From Actinomycetes bacterium (GTDB lineage Bacteria; Actinomycetota; Acidimicrobiia; Acidimicrobiales; Acidimicrobiaceae): a DNA stretch of 64,000 nt. Within the stretch, counting starts at the first letter, position 1. The number at the start of each line of letters is the position of its first letter. The DNA lies in contig JAKCDL010000002.1 of assembly GCA_021841935.1 (NCBI GenBank), positions 186,001 to 250,000 on the forward strand, given 5' to 3'. Below the pieces are notes generated by a model. That model was not told where the DNA came from. It did not search any database and saw only the letters and a list, made by a program, of their open reading frames with translations. Below are positions 53,672 to 59,340 of the stretch, piece by piece. Both the position numbers and the translations under genes were made by a program.

Positions 53672-54745
53672 TTAGTCTTCCGAGGGTGTTCCTTGATCGC
53701 CTTGCGGAACGACGCCCTTACCGAGGCCCAGCGATAGTAGACCCCCTACTGGTATTGGTAGCCAGAAATTTATTAGCCGATAGCCAATTACACCTAAAAT
53801 TGCTATCGCTCTTGGAGATCCAAAGCCAACAAGGGTCGACGTCAAGACGCCTTCGATGACTCCAAGTCCCCCGGGAGTTATTGGAATTGCGGCCAGTACG
53901 TTGGCCAAGCCATAGCTTACTAAAAGCGCATCCGGGTTGACATAGTACCCAAATGCTGCCATAAATACCCAGAGTGATGCTGCATCTAAAATCCAATTAA
54001 AGAATGCAAATATGACTGCGCGTCTAAGTAATTCAGGATTCGATTCAAGGTCCTTTATGCGCAGTGCGACACGTGAGAGTATCGGCATCAGCTTTTCAGC
54101 TTGAATGAACTTAACACGTTCGCTAAGGCGAAGAATGATTCGAGCGATTCTATCTTCACCCCTTGTCAGCGCAACAACGGTCAAGATAAAGAAGGTAAAT
54201 ACAAAGAGGCCAAGTCCAACTGCGATTGCATATGATGCACTTAGTCCGTGGAGGGGTATGGAAACGATCAGCGCTACCCACAAGATGGCGTTAAGGACAA
54301 CGGCTGATCCAATCCCCTGGGTCGCGATCGCAAATGCTGCATCGGTTGTTCTTGCGCCGGCGTTAGTCATTAGCCTCAGCGATAGGCCGGTTCCGCCGGC
54401 TGTTCCGGCTGGAATGATGTGAGAGGTAGCAAGTGAGGCTAGGTCGATTCGCAGCACCTTGCTGAAGCTGATGGCTCCCTTTGGCAACATCGCCTCGGTC
54501 AACTTAGCATACGCAAGAAGTGCGGCGACCTCTAGGGCTACTCCAAGTCCGATCCAGGCTATGTTTACCGTGGATAGGACGTGGATGTCTTTTCGAGCAC
54601 CGGCTATCTGAGGAAATACCAGGTACTCGATGACGAGTACGATTAGGATGCCCTTTGCACCTCCAAATGCAAAGCGACGCAGTGGCCCTTTTTTTCGCCA
54701 AAGTTTTCGACGCTCTTTATTTTGCTCTTCGTACTCTTCGATTAT
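53672..54745 (-). CDS. Flippase-like membrane protein (LPG synthase TM / AglD family)
   Basis: Multi-span protein of the lysylphosphatidylglycerol-synthase transmembrane (YbhN/AglD) family. Conserved ends include SHIIPAGTAGGTGLSLRLM, LANVLAAIPITPGGLGVIEG and GYRLINFWLPIPVGG. The first standard start in frame is TTG 54502, but the frame upstream continues as clear coding: a charged N-terminus (EEYEEQNKERRKLWRKK) and two hydrophobic helices that the family requires. No ATG, GTG or TTG occurs there. ATA 54745 has GGAG five bases upstream and is used here as the tentative start; GTT 54787 with GAGGAG upstream is another. A frameshift or sequence error is possible. Confidence 0.75.
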   Translation of the reverse strand: MIEEYEEQNKERRKLWRKKGPLRRFAFGGAKGILIVLVIEYLVFPQIAGARKDIHVLSTVNIAWIGLGVALEVAALLAYAKLTEAMLPKGAISFSKVLRIDLASLATSHIIPAGTAGGTGLSLRLMTNAGARTTDAAFAIATQGIGSAVVLNAILWVALIVSIPLHGLSASYAIAVGLGLFVFTFFILTVVALTRGEDRIARIILRLSERVKFIQAEKLMPILSRVALRIKDLESNPELLRRAVIFAFFNWILDAASLWVFMAAFGYYVNPDALLVSYGLANVLAAIPITPGGLGVIEGVLTSTLVGFGSPRAIAILGVIGYRLINFWLPIPVGGLLSLGLGKGVVPQGDQGTPSED

Positions 54746-54804
54746 GGTAGCTCCGCCTTCGAACGGCCCGGTAGCCGTCTTGCCAACGCCTCTCCTCGGC
54801 TAGC

Positions 54805-54872: not shown

Positions 54873-55967
54873 GTGGATCGCAAAGAGTTTTTACGTAGGG
54901 TATTAATCATTGATTTGCTCGCAATTGCAACTCTGCTATCGATCTACTTGGTTGTAGTCCTTCGTGGATTTCTCTTGGATCTATTGATTTCTACTATCTT
55001 CGCAATCGTTCTGCACCCAATCGTCTCATTCATGGTTCGCCACAAGATACGCCGGTCGATTGCTGTAGTGGTCGTCGTAATCGTAGGTTTGGCGACCCTG
55101 ACTGAATTAGTTTACGTATTCACAAAGCCGCTTTATTCTGCTGCTTTTACCTTCGCACATCAACTTCCAAGTCTCGTAGCCCAAGCCCAAAGCGGTAAGG
55201 GTCAATTGGGTTCGTTGATCACGCGATTTCACATAGAGTCATTTGTCTCTACAAATGTCTCCAAAATTACAAGTGCTGCCGGCAACGTAACAGGAACTTT
55301 GTTATCGGCTACAAGGACATTTTTGACGGGGTTGACCGGCGTTATAACCATTGCGCTACTTTCAGTCTTCATTCTCTTGGAAGGGCCAAGGGTTGTCCAC
55401 AGCACTCTTGGACTTCTGCCGAAACAAAATAAAGAGCTACTCTATCGAATACTTGAACGCAGTGAAAAGGCAGTAGCAGGCTACGTCTTTGGGAACCTTG
55501 CAACTTCAGTTATCGCAGGTATAGTCGTGGGAGCCACTCTTGCGATTCTTGGTGTCCCCTTTGCGCTACTTCTATCACTTTGGGTAGCTATCGTTGATTT
55601 GCTGCCGCTGGTAGGAGGGTTGCTAGCAGGGATACCTACAGTATTTATCGCTTTTTTGCACTCTCCAATCGCGGGAGTTGTGACTTTGATTGTATTTTTG
55701 ACCTACCAACAGATCGAAAATCACATACTGAATCCCGTTGTAATGGCTCGAACGGTCAAATTGAACCCGCTATGGATTTTGATCTCGGTTCTAGTTGGAA
55801 CTGATCTTGCAGGCTTTACGGGCGCACTTATTGGGATACCTGTTGCCGCTATGATTCAGGTAACTTCGCAGGAGCTTTGGCACCGATATAGTCCATCCCG
55901 GGACGTGCGAGCGCCAGACGAAATAGACGGAGATGATCAAATTCCAAACGTTACCGAGCCACAATAG
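54873..55967 (+). CDS. AI-2E family transporter (PerM/TqsA-like)
   Basis: A 364-residue integral membrane protein with about eight helices. N-terminal IDLLAIATLLSIYLVVVLRG, an extended hydrophilic stretch (about 95-150), then FGNLATSVIAGIVVGATLAI and the signature LLPLVGGLLAGIPTVFIAF, plus QQIENHILNPVVMARTVKLN and LAGFTGALIGIPVAAMI. Members export autoinducer-2 or act as cation/proton antiporters; substrate is not predictable. GTG 54873 has GGAGGTGAGG upstream. Its end overlaps the convergent deacetylase gene by 17 bp. Confidence 0.92.
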   Translation: MDRKEFLRRVLIIDLLAIATLLSIYLVVVLRGFLLDLLISTIFAIVLHPIVSFMVRHKIRRSIAVVVVVIVGLATLTELVYVFTKPLYSAAFTFAHQLPSLVAQAQSGKGQLGSLITRFHIESFVSTNVSKITSAAGNVTGTLLSATRTFLTGLTGVITIALLSVFILLEGPRVVHSTLGLLPKQNKELLYRILERSEKAVAGYVFGNLATSVIAGIVVGATLAILGVPFALLLSLWVAIVDLLPLVGGLLAGIPTVFIAFLHSPIAGVVTLIVFLTYQQIENHILNPVVMARTVKLNPLWILISVLVGTDLAGFTGALIGIPVAAMIQVTSQELWHRYSPSRDVRAPDEIDGDDQIPNVTEPQ

Positions 55968-56661
55968 GACCTATCGAGATAGATTCACTTTTGAATCGAT
56001 CTATAAGAAGAGGCAATGCTCCAATAGTTGAGTTGATTGATCCAGGGGCAGAGGTGCAGTCGCTATCGTGCAAAAGCACGGTTCCTCCTCGTGGATTGTG
56101 GCGAAATACATCATGTATCACTGATTCCGGGGTGGCTATAGCCCTCCAGTCTCTTCCCCAATTAGTCCAAGTAACGACCCGCAAGTCACTCTTCTTGCAT
56201 CCATAGATCGTTCCTCCTGATATGACACCATAGGGAGGGCGATAAAGTTCGATCTTTCGATCGACGGCATCTTCGACTACCTCTTTACCTCTTTTTAAGT
56301 CAAAGGCGATGGTCTTGGCGCTTCTAAAGAGGTGATTTCGATGCTCGTAGCCGTGGAGGGCGATGTCATGTCCCTCGGATGCGACCTCACGTGCCAGAGT
56401 TGGGTATTTGGCAACCATTTGACCAAGCATAAAGAAGGTTGCCTTTGTCTTTTTCTCCGCGAGGATCTCGAGTAACTGAGGAGTGAAGGCCGGATCGGGT
56501 CCGTCGTCAAAGGAGAGTGCCGTATAACTTGAACTGTGGTTATTTCCTGTAATCGTTGGAATTATCCTCTTTGTTACAGGGAAAAACCACGAAAGCGCGC
56601 TAGCACTGTGGCCGATTGTAGCTATCGATGCCACACCAAGAGCGATCTTCTTCAATGCCAA
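55951..56661 (-). CDS. NodB-type polysaccharide deacetylase
   Basis: A 236-residue carbohydrate esterase 4 family protein. The N-terminal hydrophobic segment (about 4-27) is a signal peptide or membrane anchor. The NodB domain has ALSFDDGPD (catalytic base and metal Asp), HGYEHRNHLF (metal His pair), RPPYG and GTVLLHDSD (His of motif 5). All catalytic motifs look intact. It would deacetylate an N-acetylated glycan or glycolipid outside the membrane. It lies 22 bp downstream of the GT28-fusion gene, in the same direction, and is probably cotranscribed with it. Confidence 0.93.
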   Translation of the reverse strand: MALKKIALGVASIATIGHSASALSWFFPVTKRIIPTITGNNHSSSYTALSFDDGPDPAFTPQLLEILAEKKTKATFFMLGQMVAKYPTLAREVASEGHDIALHGYEHRNHLFRSAKTIAFDLKRGKEVVEDAVDRKIELYRPPYGVISGGTIYGCKKSDLRVVTWTNWGRDWRAIATPESVIHDVFRHNPRGGTVLLHDSDCTSAPGSINSTIGALPLLIDRFKSESISIGPIVAR

Positions 56662-56683: not shown

Positions 56684-58456
56684 CTAGGCGGGATTAGCGG
56701 TGTCTGTTGGGGTGAGCTGCGAAAAGGGTAGTACGGTAAAGCTCTGCCGATTTAGGGTAGCAAGTACTTGTTTGATCTCTACGAGGGCCGCTGCTGAGGT
56801 TAGATTTTCGGTTGGAATGAGATATGTCCTACCGGATACTGCTTTGAAGTGGAGAGGGTTCTCGAGGCCGTAGGCCTTTACCACGGGACTATGAGAGAGC
56901 GATGCCCAGGCGAGATCAACACTTGAAATGATACTCTCAGGGGAGTAGATGAGGTTAGATTTGCCAGTTATCCCGCTGAGGATCTTTTCTGCTTTGGTTG
57001 CTCCTTCGATAGGCGCGAAGAGGCGTATGCCCGAGTTCATTGGCCAGCCTCCGTTGACGACTGTTACGCCTTTTGCGACAAGGTTGCGAACTTGATACGG
57101 GTATTCAAGTGCAAGCGGACCGCTGACAACCGCTCCAATACCAGTGCTTGCTAGCGTGCGAATTATCTTTGGGTCAGAGATGGTGGCGCTAGTCATTGGA
57201 ACTTCGAGGTAGGAGTATGGAGCCGCTACCGCTGCGCTCGCGATATTGACCTCGTTAGTAGCTGCATTTGTTGCAACGTTTGCCAAAGTCAGAAGTGAGA
57301 TTGATCCAAAGGCTACCTTCGCCGAGGTGACAAGTGGTCGGGGCTGACTTGATCGCTGACGGCGCGGAATCGAACCACCCGAGTAAATCGATGATATTAC
57401 TTTCGCTGGATCGTCAATGAAAACTTGAGATGCGCGTCTCGTTGTCAGTTCAGGATTTCGCGCTAGTTCATGGATCGTCTCGATCAGCTCATTACGATTC
57501 TTCGCCCATAGCGATACGCCTGCTGCCTCCATCTCGATTACGTTTCTTAGGCCGTGACCTTTAATGGGGTTGTAGCTAATTACTGGGACTCCTGCGGCAA
57601 AGGCTTCATTCGCCGTCAGGCCGCCGGCGTTTTGAATGACTACGTCGCAGGCAGCCATTAGTTCGGGCATGCGGTCTGTCCATCCAACGACTTTGCCTAC
57701 ATTTAACTTATTCAAATCGTCGAATAGTGCTTTGTTCTTTCCGCATATTACTACGGGAAAGATATCTGGCGCATCTGCCAGGGACATAACGGTATCTTTG
57801 AGGTCTCCGACCCCCCAGCTTCCAGCAACTATTAGCGCTGCTGCCTGATCGACTGGAATCCCAAACTCTGCGCGTATCTCTATAGCCTTAGATTTATCCA
57901 TGGTTTTGAAGCGAGACGAAACCGCTGGGCCGCTTACAGCAGGGGTCTTCTCAACGAGTCTTTCAACTTGTCGAACGCTTATGTGGTGCACCGCTAGATA
58001 CTCGTCGATGCCCTCGTCGACCCACATGGTATGGACAGAAAAATCTGTCAAAAATGTATACGCCGGAACTTTCATCGGCCTGACTAGAGAGCGACGCGCC
58101 CTACCGAGAACGAGGGAGGCAAAGGGATAAGTTGTGATGACTAAGTCGGCGTCGAGTTCCTTGATCCACCTTCGAATTCGTGGGAAGAAGATCTTGTAGA
58201 AGATGGTGACAATTGGTGGTTTGATTGCCTTGAAGGATGCGAAGATGCGAAATAGAGCCTCGTAACTCCACTGAGCATGATCTAGTTGAAGCTCATAGGT
58301 TCTTTCAAGAAACCGCCCTATTCTTGGAGCGGCATCGAGAAAGTCTCGTATTTCGACGTCAAAACCGTAGTTTGAAAGGCTTTGTGCGATTTCTTTAGCT
58401 GCGCCATCGTGTCCGGCGCCCATGCGAGCGGAGATGATCAGCACTCGTTTCGGCAT
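56684..58456 (-). CDS. GT28-type glycosyltransferase fused to a degenerate deacetylase-like domain
   Basis: A 590-residue two-part protein. Residues 1-355 are a MurG/diacylglycerol-glucosyltransferase-like GT28: RVLIISARMGAGHDGAAKEI (MGDG-synthase start), LVITTYPFASLVLG, LIVAGSWGVGD, and QNAGGLTANEAFAAGVPVI, the donor-binding segment. A hydrophobic stretch at 379-400 follows. Residues 410-590 have no catalytic motif I recognise, but their order (a VRNLVAKGVTVVNGGW strand like the NodB VASEGHDIALHGY strand, then EKILSGITGKSNLIYSPESI) resembles a NodB fold without its Asp and His residues. It may add a sugar to a membrane lipid. Downstream is the intact deacetylase. Confidence 0.84.
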   Translation of the reverse strand: MPKRVLIISARMGAGHDGAAKEIAQSLSNYGFDVEIRDFLDAAPRIGRFLERTYELQLDHAQWSYEALFRIFASFKAIKPPIVTIFYKIFFPRIRRWIKELDADLVITTYPFASLVLGRARRSLVRPMKVPAYTFLTDFSVHTMWVDEGIDEYLAVHHISVRQVERLVEKTPAVSGPAVSSRFKTMDKSKAIEIRAEFGIPVDQAAALIVAGSWGVGDLKDTVMSLADAPDIFPVVICGKNKALFDDLNKLNVGKVVGWTDRMPELMAACDVVIQNAGGLTANEAFAAGVPVISYNPIKGHGLRNVIEMEAAGVSLWAKNRNELIETIHELARNPELTTRRASQVFIDDPAKVISSIYSGGSIPRRQRSSQPRPLVTSAKVAFGSISLLTLANVATNAATNEVNIASAAVAAPYSYLEVPMTSATISDPKIIRTLASTGIGAVVSGPLALEYPYQVRNLVAKGVTVVNGGWPMNSGIRLFAPIEGATKAEKILSGITGKSNLIYSPESIISSVDLAWASLSHSPVVKAYGLENPLHFKAVSGRTYLIPTENLTSAAALVEIKQVLATLNRQSFTVLPFSQLTPTDTANPA

Positions 58457-58485
58457 CTAGCTAATAACCTTTTCTTCAGAGATCC

Positions 58486-59340
58486 ATGGTCTACATACTT
58501 GCAATCGCATCAGCTATATCGTTTTCACTTGCTGCTATATTCCAGAAGCGGCAAGTTCGTGGTGTCTCAACCGACGCGAATTTGAAGGTTGCTCTACTTT
58601 GGCAACTCATCAAAAACCCATATTGGATTCTAGGCGTCATTTTCGATATCTTTGCGTTTGTCGGTCAGTTCCTGGCGCTCAAGGCAGGTTCAATTTTGGT
58701 TGTATCTCCAATTTTGGCATTTGGATTGAGCATAACCATCTTCGTCGACGCCATCTTTGAAAGAAAGCGGCCATCGAGGTCGATCGTTTTGTTAACCCTA
58801 ATGGCGGGTGCGTTACTCACTGTTTTTCTCTCTACCACGACAACAAATTCGAGTAAATTCGTCCCTGGAATCGGACTAGGTATAATTATCTCACTTACAG
58901 TGACTGTGATTTTCGTCACTGCAAAGTTTGCTCCCTTTCGTAGTTCGAAGTGGTGGATCGACTTTGTCCTCCCTGTCTTTACTGGGGTCACTCATGGCAT
59001 TGCCATCTTTGTAACAAAGGCCACCACTTCGCTGGTAACTTCATTGGGTTTCGGCGCCCTTCTCACACATTGGCCGGGCTATGTTCTGATTTTGATCGGA
59101 GCAATCGACTTGATAATGACTCAGAGCGTCCTGCAGCTAGTAGAGCTAAGTGGGGTACTTCCCGTCGTCAACCTTTTGGAGCCAACGGTTGCAATGGCCC
59201 TTGGTGTCCTCTTTCTCAGGGATCACATCACATCCACGATTGGTACAGCTGCGATCGTAATTACCCTTTGCGCCTTAGGTGGCGTAACATTTGCGATATC
59301 GGTTATGTCATCTCGTTTAGTTGCAGAGGGAGAAACCTAA
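58486..59340 (+). CDS. DMT-superfamily (EamA-like) transporter
   Basis: A 284-residue membrane protein with about nine or ten helices, two repeated halves and the DMT pattern: YILAIASAISFSLAAIFQKR, FLALKAGSILVVSPILAFGL at the end of helix 3-4, and the second-half LVELSGVLPVVNLLEPTVAM with a following GVLFLRD. Members export or import metabolites or lipids; the substrate is unknown. ATG 58486. It is divergent from the GT28-fusion gene with 29 bp between. The PPK2 start lies just past its stop codon. Confidence 0.85.
   Translation: MVYILAIASAISFSLAAIFQKRQVRGVSTDANLKVALLWQLIKNPYWILGVIFDIFAFVGQFLALKAGSILVVSPILAFGLSITIFVDAIFERKRPSRSIVLLTLMAGALLTVFLSTTTTNSSKFVPGIGLGIIISLTVTVIFVTAKFAPFRSSKWWIDFVLPVFTGVTHGIAIFVTKATTSLVTSLGFGALLTHWPGYVLILIGAIDLIMTQSVLQLVELSGVLPVVNLLEPTVAMALGVLFLRDHITSTIGTAAIVITLCALGGVTFAISVMSSRLVAEGET

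Follow-up and report, generated by a model that had tools for sequence, protein, structure and literature searches.

The open reading frame at 56684-58456 on the minus strand of the window (the whole 64,000-nucleotide stretch of DNA analysed here) is a real one and encodes a protein of 590 residues from an ATG start; the organism is an actinobacterium of acid-mine type. We read this protein as a probably membrane-linked fusion of a GT28 glycosyltransferase with a dead NodB/CE4 domain, lying directly upstream of a CE4 deacetylase that has a complete active site (Table 1). The reading as a whole, with the mechanism proposed for it below, seems to us evenly balanced between right and wrong. That the C-terminal domain is a CE4-derived pseudo-domain, and not a CE4 enzyme, is strongly supported.

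Table 1 Features of the fusion gene and its neighbours in the window.
Feature	Position	Strand	Evidence
GT28 (MGDG-synthase/UgtP-type) glycosyltransferase domain, residues 1-352	57401..58456	-	PF06925, PF04101, PDB matches
Linker; residues ~374-392 are hydrophobic and probably cross the membrane once, with an Arg/Lys cluster before them	57281..57337	-	Hydropathy and charge, 55 homologues
Degenerate NodB/CE4 (pseudo-deacetylase) domain, residues 413-590 (about 413-584)	56687..57220	-	hhalign, shuffle control, Foldseek/VIA, replaced catalytic residues
Active-type NodB/CE4 polysaccharide deacetylase, probable N-terminal signal/anchor	55951..56661	-	PF01522 (E 1.2e-30), complete motifs
DMT-family membrane transporter, candidate partner (flippase?)	58486..59340	+, divergent	NCBIfam NF038012 DMT_1 (55.8 bits; cut-off 50)

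Residues 1-352 of the fusion exceed the cut-offs of two Pfam models, MGDG_synth (PF06925, 52.2 bits; cut-off 25) and Glyco_tran_28_C (PF04101, 28.9 bits; cut-off 22). The PDB chain of Arabidopsis MGD1 (4wyi) aligns to residues 2-367 with E 4.7e-19, and a processive diacylglycerol glucosyltransferase (9wde) matches the GT28 part with E 1.4e-27. The two Pfam scores and the full-length match to a solved GT-B member place the N-terminal domain in the GT28/MGDG synthase family, and the initial annotation, which had called this part MGDG-synthase-like, is borne out by PF06925, PF04101 and 4wyi. The domain falls outside the specific UgtP equivalog of NCBIfam (diglucosyl-DAG synthase), scoring 149.8 bits against a cut-off of 500. 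It is of the same type as UgtP and the MGDG synthases, but the solved members listed here (4wyi and 9wde) lack a C-terminal CE4 domain.

No Pfam or NCBIfam model matched the last 221 residues of the fusion, even at E 10, which leaves half of this GT28, transmembrane and dead CE4 architecture unannotated by the two libraries. PF01522, the deacetylase model, gave no match at all in the window's fusion protein, and just three of the 41 C-terminal domains of the class had a sub-threshold match to it (best E 0.077). The initial annotation had likened this part of the protein to the adjacent deacetylase. A direct BLASTP comparison of the two window sequences was not significant (E 0.44), whereas at the profile level the relationship stands far above chance. 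A profile of 41 C-terminal domains aligned by hhalign to one of 31 neighbouring deacetylases with E 2.4e-6 and a probability of 89%, collinear over 164 columns. With the linker trimmed the score was 47.8, against a maximum of 20.2 among 100 column-shuffled profiles and 14.2 for the reversed profile. Searched against PDB sequences, the C-terminal profile ranked the CE4 enzyme 2c71 first, weakly (E 0.1), and the CE4 PgdA was also among the matches. An orthologous domain from another class of the phylum (L089) was found by the profile of the window's class (E 9.8e-11). This domain matches the deacetylase profile (E 4e-11 in a set of 121 ORFs) and itself clears the gathering threshold of PF01522 with 25.6 bits (threshold 23.1).

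An AlphaFold2 model built from six C-terminal domain sequences alone was poor (pLDDT 54, pTM 0.55), too weak for detail, and served for hit ranking alone. Its ten best Foldseek matches were all CE4 (best E 3.6e-3), and in VIA-align NodB-type proteins filled ranks 1-30 (Z 8.2-4.9), the first unrelated fold appearing at 4.6. A second model, with five neighbour deacetylases added to the alignment and to that extent not independent of the homology claim, reached pLDDT 82.9 and pTM 0.81. It matched PdaC in Foldseek with E 7e-7, and its best VIA match was the CE4 pseudoenzyme BA3943 (wild type, 7bkf; Z 16.4 over 167 residues at 3.0 A). Both models point to the distorted TIM-barrel fold of NodB; a different C-terminal fold would have told against the initial proposal, and structure prediction followed by structure search put CE4/NodB matches on top. 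The opposing view, that the C-terminal part has an unrelated (beta/alpha) fold whose likeness to NodB is generic barrel similarity, is already largely refuted and strikes us as very improbable. It can appeal to the missing Pfam match in the window protein, to the non-significant BLASTP and to the pLDDT of 54 obtained when deacetylase rows are left out, but it is contradicted by a profile score far above the shuffles, by the passage of L089 over the PF01522 threshold and by the run of NodB-type structures that precedes the first unrelated fold in VIA.

The active site has gone from this domain. Aligned with the neighbouring deacetylase, all metal and catalytic positions are replaced in the window (D52 by P420, D53 by M421, H103 by G469, H107 by M473, R141 by S505 and H198 by P548) and P142 is kept as P506. 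The Asp-His-His metal triad survives in none of the 45 C-terminal domains, and neither the triad nor motifs MT1-MT5, as defined for CE4 enzymes (PMC10967932, PMC6115787), are present in the C-terminal domain of the fusion. Some 14 residues around motif 4 are also missing. Set against NodB- and PdaB-type deacetylases, among which the adjacent gene falls and from which the dead domain descends, the domain is without the DD pair, the HxxxH, the R and the catalytic H. Profiles, L089, the models and the residue replacements thus uphold the initial view of a GT28 joined to a NodB-type deacetylase fold that has lost its active site, a structural guess from raw sequence that proved correct where no Pfam model reaches. 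BA3943 and other Bacillus CE4 pseudoenzymes share with it a CE4/NodB fold that has no working active site. BA3943 is, to our knowledge, not a glycosyltransferase fusion. It is 13% identical, and differs in that its MT1 departs from TFDDG (PMC6115787), whereas here every metal and catalytic position is lost. The dead domains are highly conserved at N468-G469-G470 and P506. Because the first three sit at CE4 motif 2 and P506 at motif 3, these residues suggest that the old binding cleft may be retained.

The neighbouring gene scores 106.5 bits against PF01522 (cut-off 23.1) and carries every CE4 motif (SFDDGP, HGYEH, RPPYG and LLHD), which together assign it to CE4. D52, D53, H103, H107, R141, P142, P143 and H198 are invariant across 31 deacetylase orthologues. 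Its start is a TTG with an AAGGAG ribosome site, 22 bp past the end of the fusion ORF, and its N-terminus holds a moderately hydrophobic segment. It is the only PF01522 protein (E <= 1e-8) in the genome of the window (G000), which is 86.6% complete. Fusion and neighbour form a natural pair of inactive and active deacetylases, the inactive one being joined to the enzyme expected to produce the substrate.

A duplication of this neighbour had been suggested as the source of the dead domain, and the suggestion is not supported. A tree of 57 CE4-type domains resolves three clades: the dead domains (support 100/98), the neighbouring deacetylases (94/80) and other CE4s. The dead clade joins between the neighbours and the other CE4s, outside the former. 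An HMM of the dead domain scores no higher on the neighbours than on other CE4s (medians 17.5 and 16.5, the other-CE4 list including some chosen as good scorers). The position of the clade and these scores point to one old event and not to a recent copy, and with branches this long the ancestor may or may not have been the cassette's own deacetylase. Preferential co-evolution of dead domain and deacetylase was also considered and rejected, as the mirror-tree partial r was 0.34 for this pair and 0.32 for transferase and deacetylase, with no preference.

The dead domain (E <= 1e-10) is carried by 35/42 genomes of the family, in nearly all cases within an ORF that has room for the transferase. 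Across 395 genomes of the class it occurs in 32 (34 copies, all in long ORFs), and a deacetylase orthologue (E <= 1e-80) in 40. Every one of the 32 domain-bearing genomes also has the deacetylase, eight further genomes carry only the deacetylase, and the domain without the deacetylase was never found in the 395. The hypergeometric P for this co-occurrence is 6e-40, a value that ignores kinship, with 11 family-level groups involved. The fusion lies directly upstream of the deacetylase, on the same strand, in 31/34 copies; the second copies in G096 and G060 and the copy in Acidithrix have no immediately adjacent deacetylase. GT28 copies lacking the dead domain have no nearby deacetylase at 14/18 loci, while in G059 and G285 such a GT28 stands beside one. 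The initial annotation had proposed looking for the same fusion in other Acidimicrobiia; it is there, and in two further classes as well, with fusion and deacetylase together in G600 and G512 of one and in G518, G508, G537, G528 and G616 of the other. Judged from the sequences, a two-gene cassette of the fusion and a complete-site CE4 is conserved across at least three actinobacterial classes.

The asymmetry of this dependence, in which the domain always accompanies the deacetylase and not the reverse, would suit a mainly allosteric or structural role, the dead domain stabilising or activating the live deacetylase as a pseudo-dimer and binding no sugar. Active/inactive pairs are a common pattern among pseudoenzymes. 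The conservation of N468, G469, G470 and P506 at the old active-site motifs speaks for a kept cleft, however, and we consider such a purely structural role unlikely.

Two close relatives of the window differ in spacing: in L005 (Acidithrix ferrooxidans) and L006 the deacetylase follows the fusion at a distance of 1.6 kb and 4.7 kb. At L106 (G701) the dead CE4 domain is a separate ORF of 202 residues, placed between GT28 and deacetylase and overlapping the GT28 ORF by 28 bp. In G547 (L113/L118) it is split from the transferase, possibly by a frameshift. At two other Acidimicrobiia loci, L139 (G048) and L135 (G378), a different NodB deacetylase stands directly upstream of a different MGDG-type transferase; a pairing of NodB enzymes with MGDG-type transferases seems to have arisen more than once.

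The linker bears on where the dead domain would be placed. The initial annotation had noted a hydrophobic segment before the fold in both proteins. In the fusion, most relatives have a good candidate transmembrane segment (mean best 19-mer Kyte-Doolittle value of 1.82 in 55 homologues, flanked by a net charge of +3.6 N-terminally and +0.5 C-terminally), whereas the window's own segment is only moderately hydrophobic and borderline (1.40), weaker evidence for the same feature. Since the hydrophobic segment follows an Arg/Lys cluster, an N-in/C-out topology is suggested; given the weak segment in the window, the fusion protein could there be entirely cytoplasmic. The arrangement recalls MatB of Streptomyces, predicted to consist of an intracellular GT2, a TM helix and an extracellular CE4 (PMC5972031). 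The likeness would lie in this predicted one-chain layout, with a glycosyltransferase inside, one TM helix and a CE4-fold domain outside; most homologues agree with it in hydropathy and charge bias, and the window (1.40) is borderline. The difference is that MatB joins its GT2 to an apparently active CE4 and makes poly-GlcNAc, whereas here the transferase is of the GT28/MGDG type, the attached CE4 is dead and the live one is next door. With a GT28 domain and a dead CE4 site, the fusion does not belong to the MatB-like class of active CE4 fused to GT2.

We propose, on the basis of linkage, fold and knowledge of the families, that (i) the GT28 domain would transfer an N-acetylated sugar to diacylglycerol or a similar lipid on the cytoplasmic face, with GlcNAc the likeliest sugar in view of the CE4 de-N-acetylase partner; (ii) the glycolipid would be flipped, possibly by the neighbouring DMT-family protein; (iii) the dead CE4 domain would be positioned outside by the transmembrane segment of the linker; (iv) there it would bind the sugar head group, the anchored deacetylase or both; and (v) glycolipid synthesis would thereby be coupled to de-N-acetylation, giving an aminosugar (cationic) glycolipid. 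Conservation of the cassette in at least three classes suggests that the dead domain helps the live deacetylase act on the new glycolipid. That it would do so by holding or presenting the lipid-linked sugar, as first put forward in the initial annotation, is plausible, and the conserved linkage and co-occurrence fit. More tentatively, and with rather less than even confidence, we suggest an undescribed glycolipid pathway in several actinobacterial classes, in which a single membrane-spanning polypeptide would make an N-acetylhexosaminyl lipid inside and, through its dead deacetylase, present it or activate the live enzyme outside, so that an aminosugar lipid results.

A competing account makes the dead domain a glycan- or peptidoglycan-binding (lectin-like) tether for the transferase, with the deacetylase acting on peptidoglycan and the two linked by common regulation only. 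In its favour, the deacetylase scores best on PdaB- and NodB-type NCBIfam models and nearly as well on those for peptidoglycan deacetylases, all far below cut-off. Inactive CE4 folds are also known from cell-wall proteins, as BA0330 and BA0331 are without deacetylase activity yet stabilise the wall (PMC4505593). A tether of this kind sits poorly with a domain that is joined to a lipid glycosyltransferase and that no genome among the 395 carries in the absence of the deacetylase, and in G048 and G378 the NodB genes that directly precede different MGDG-type transferases point to a shared glycolipid substrate. We rate the tether as fairly unlikely.

Glycosyltransferase-CE4 fusions and CE4 pseudoenzymes are both known already, and no report of the GT28 and dead CE4 combination was found in the literature searched. 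The same search covered GT28-CE4 fusions and aminosugar lipids of these organisms and returned nothing; such reports may exist elsewhere. Should the proposed pathway be correct, an aminosugar glycolipid would be predicted in Acidimicrobiia and the fusion would offer a clean case in which to ask what role a CE4 pseudoenzyme plays.

The DMT gene has homologues in 17 of the neighbourhoods compared and lies divergently beside the fusion in most of those from Acidimicrobiia. It falls outside the genes conserved around the cassette in the two other classes examined, and was on that ground rejected as a core part of the cassette. The fusion and the DMT gene begin 29 bp apart (58457-58485), and in nine of the loci measured, the window included, the distance between the two start codons is 23-33 bp. 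Such a gap implies that the promoters overlap each other's genes or that the transcripts are leaderless. Further along the window, a lysylphosphatidylglycerol-synthase-TM gene (PF03706) at 53672-54766 on the minus strand has no ATG, GTG or TTG start before 54502, the GTG of the relative at L003 being absent at the matching place, and the sequence is 93% identical to that relative back to about 54766.
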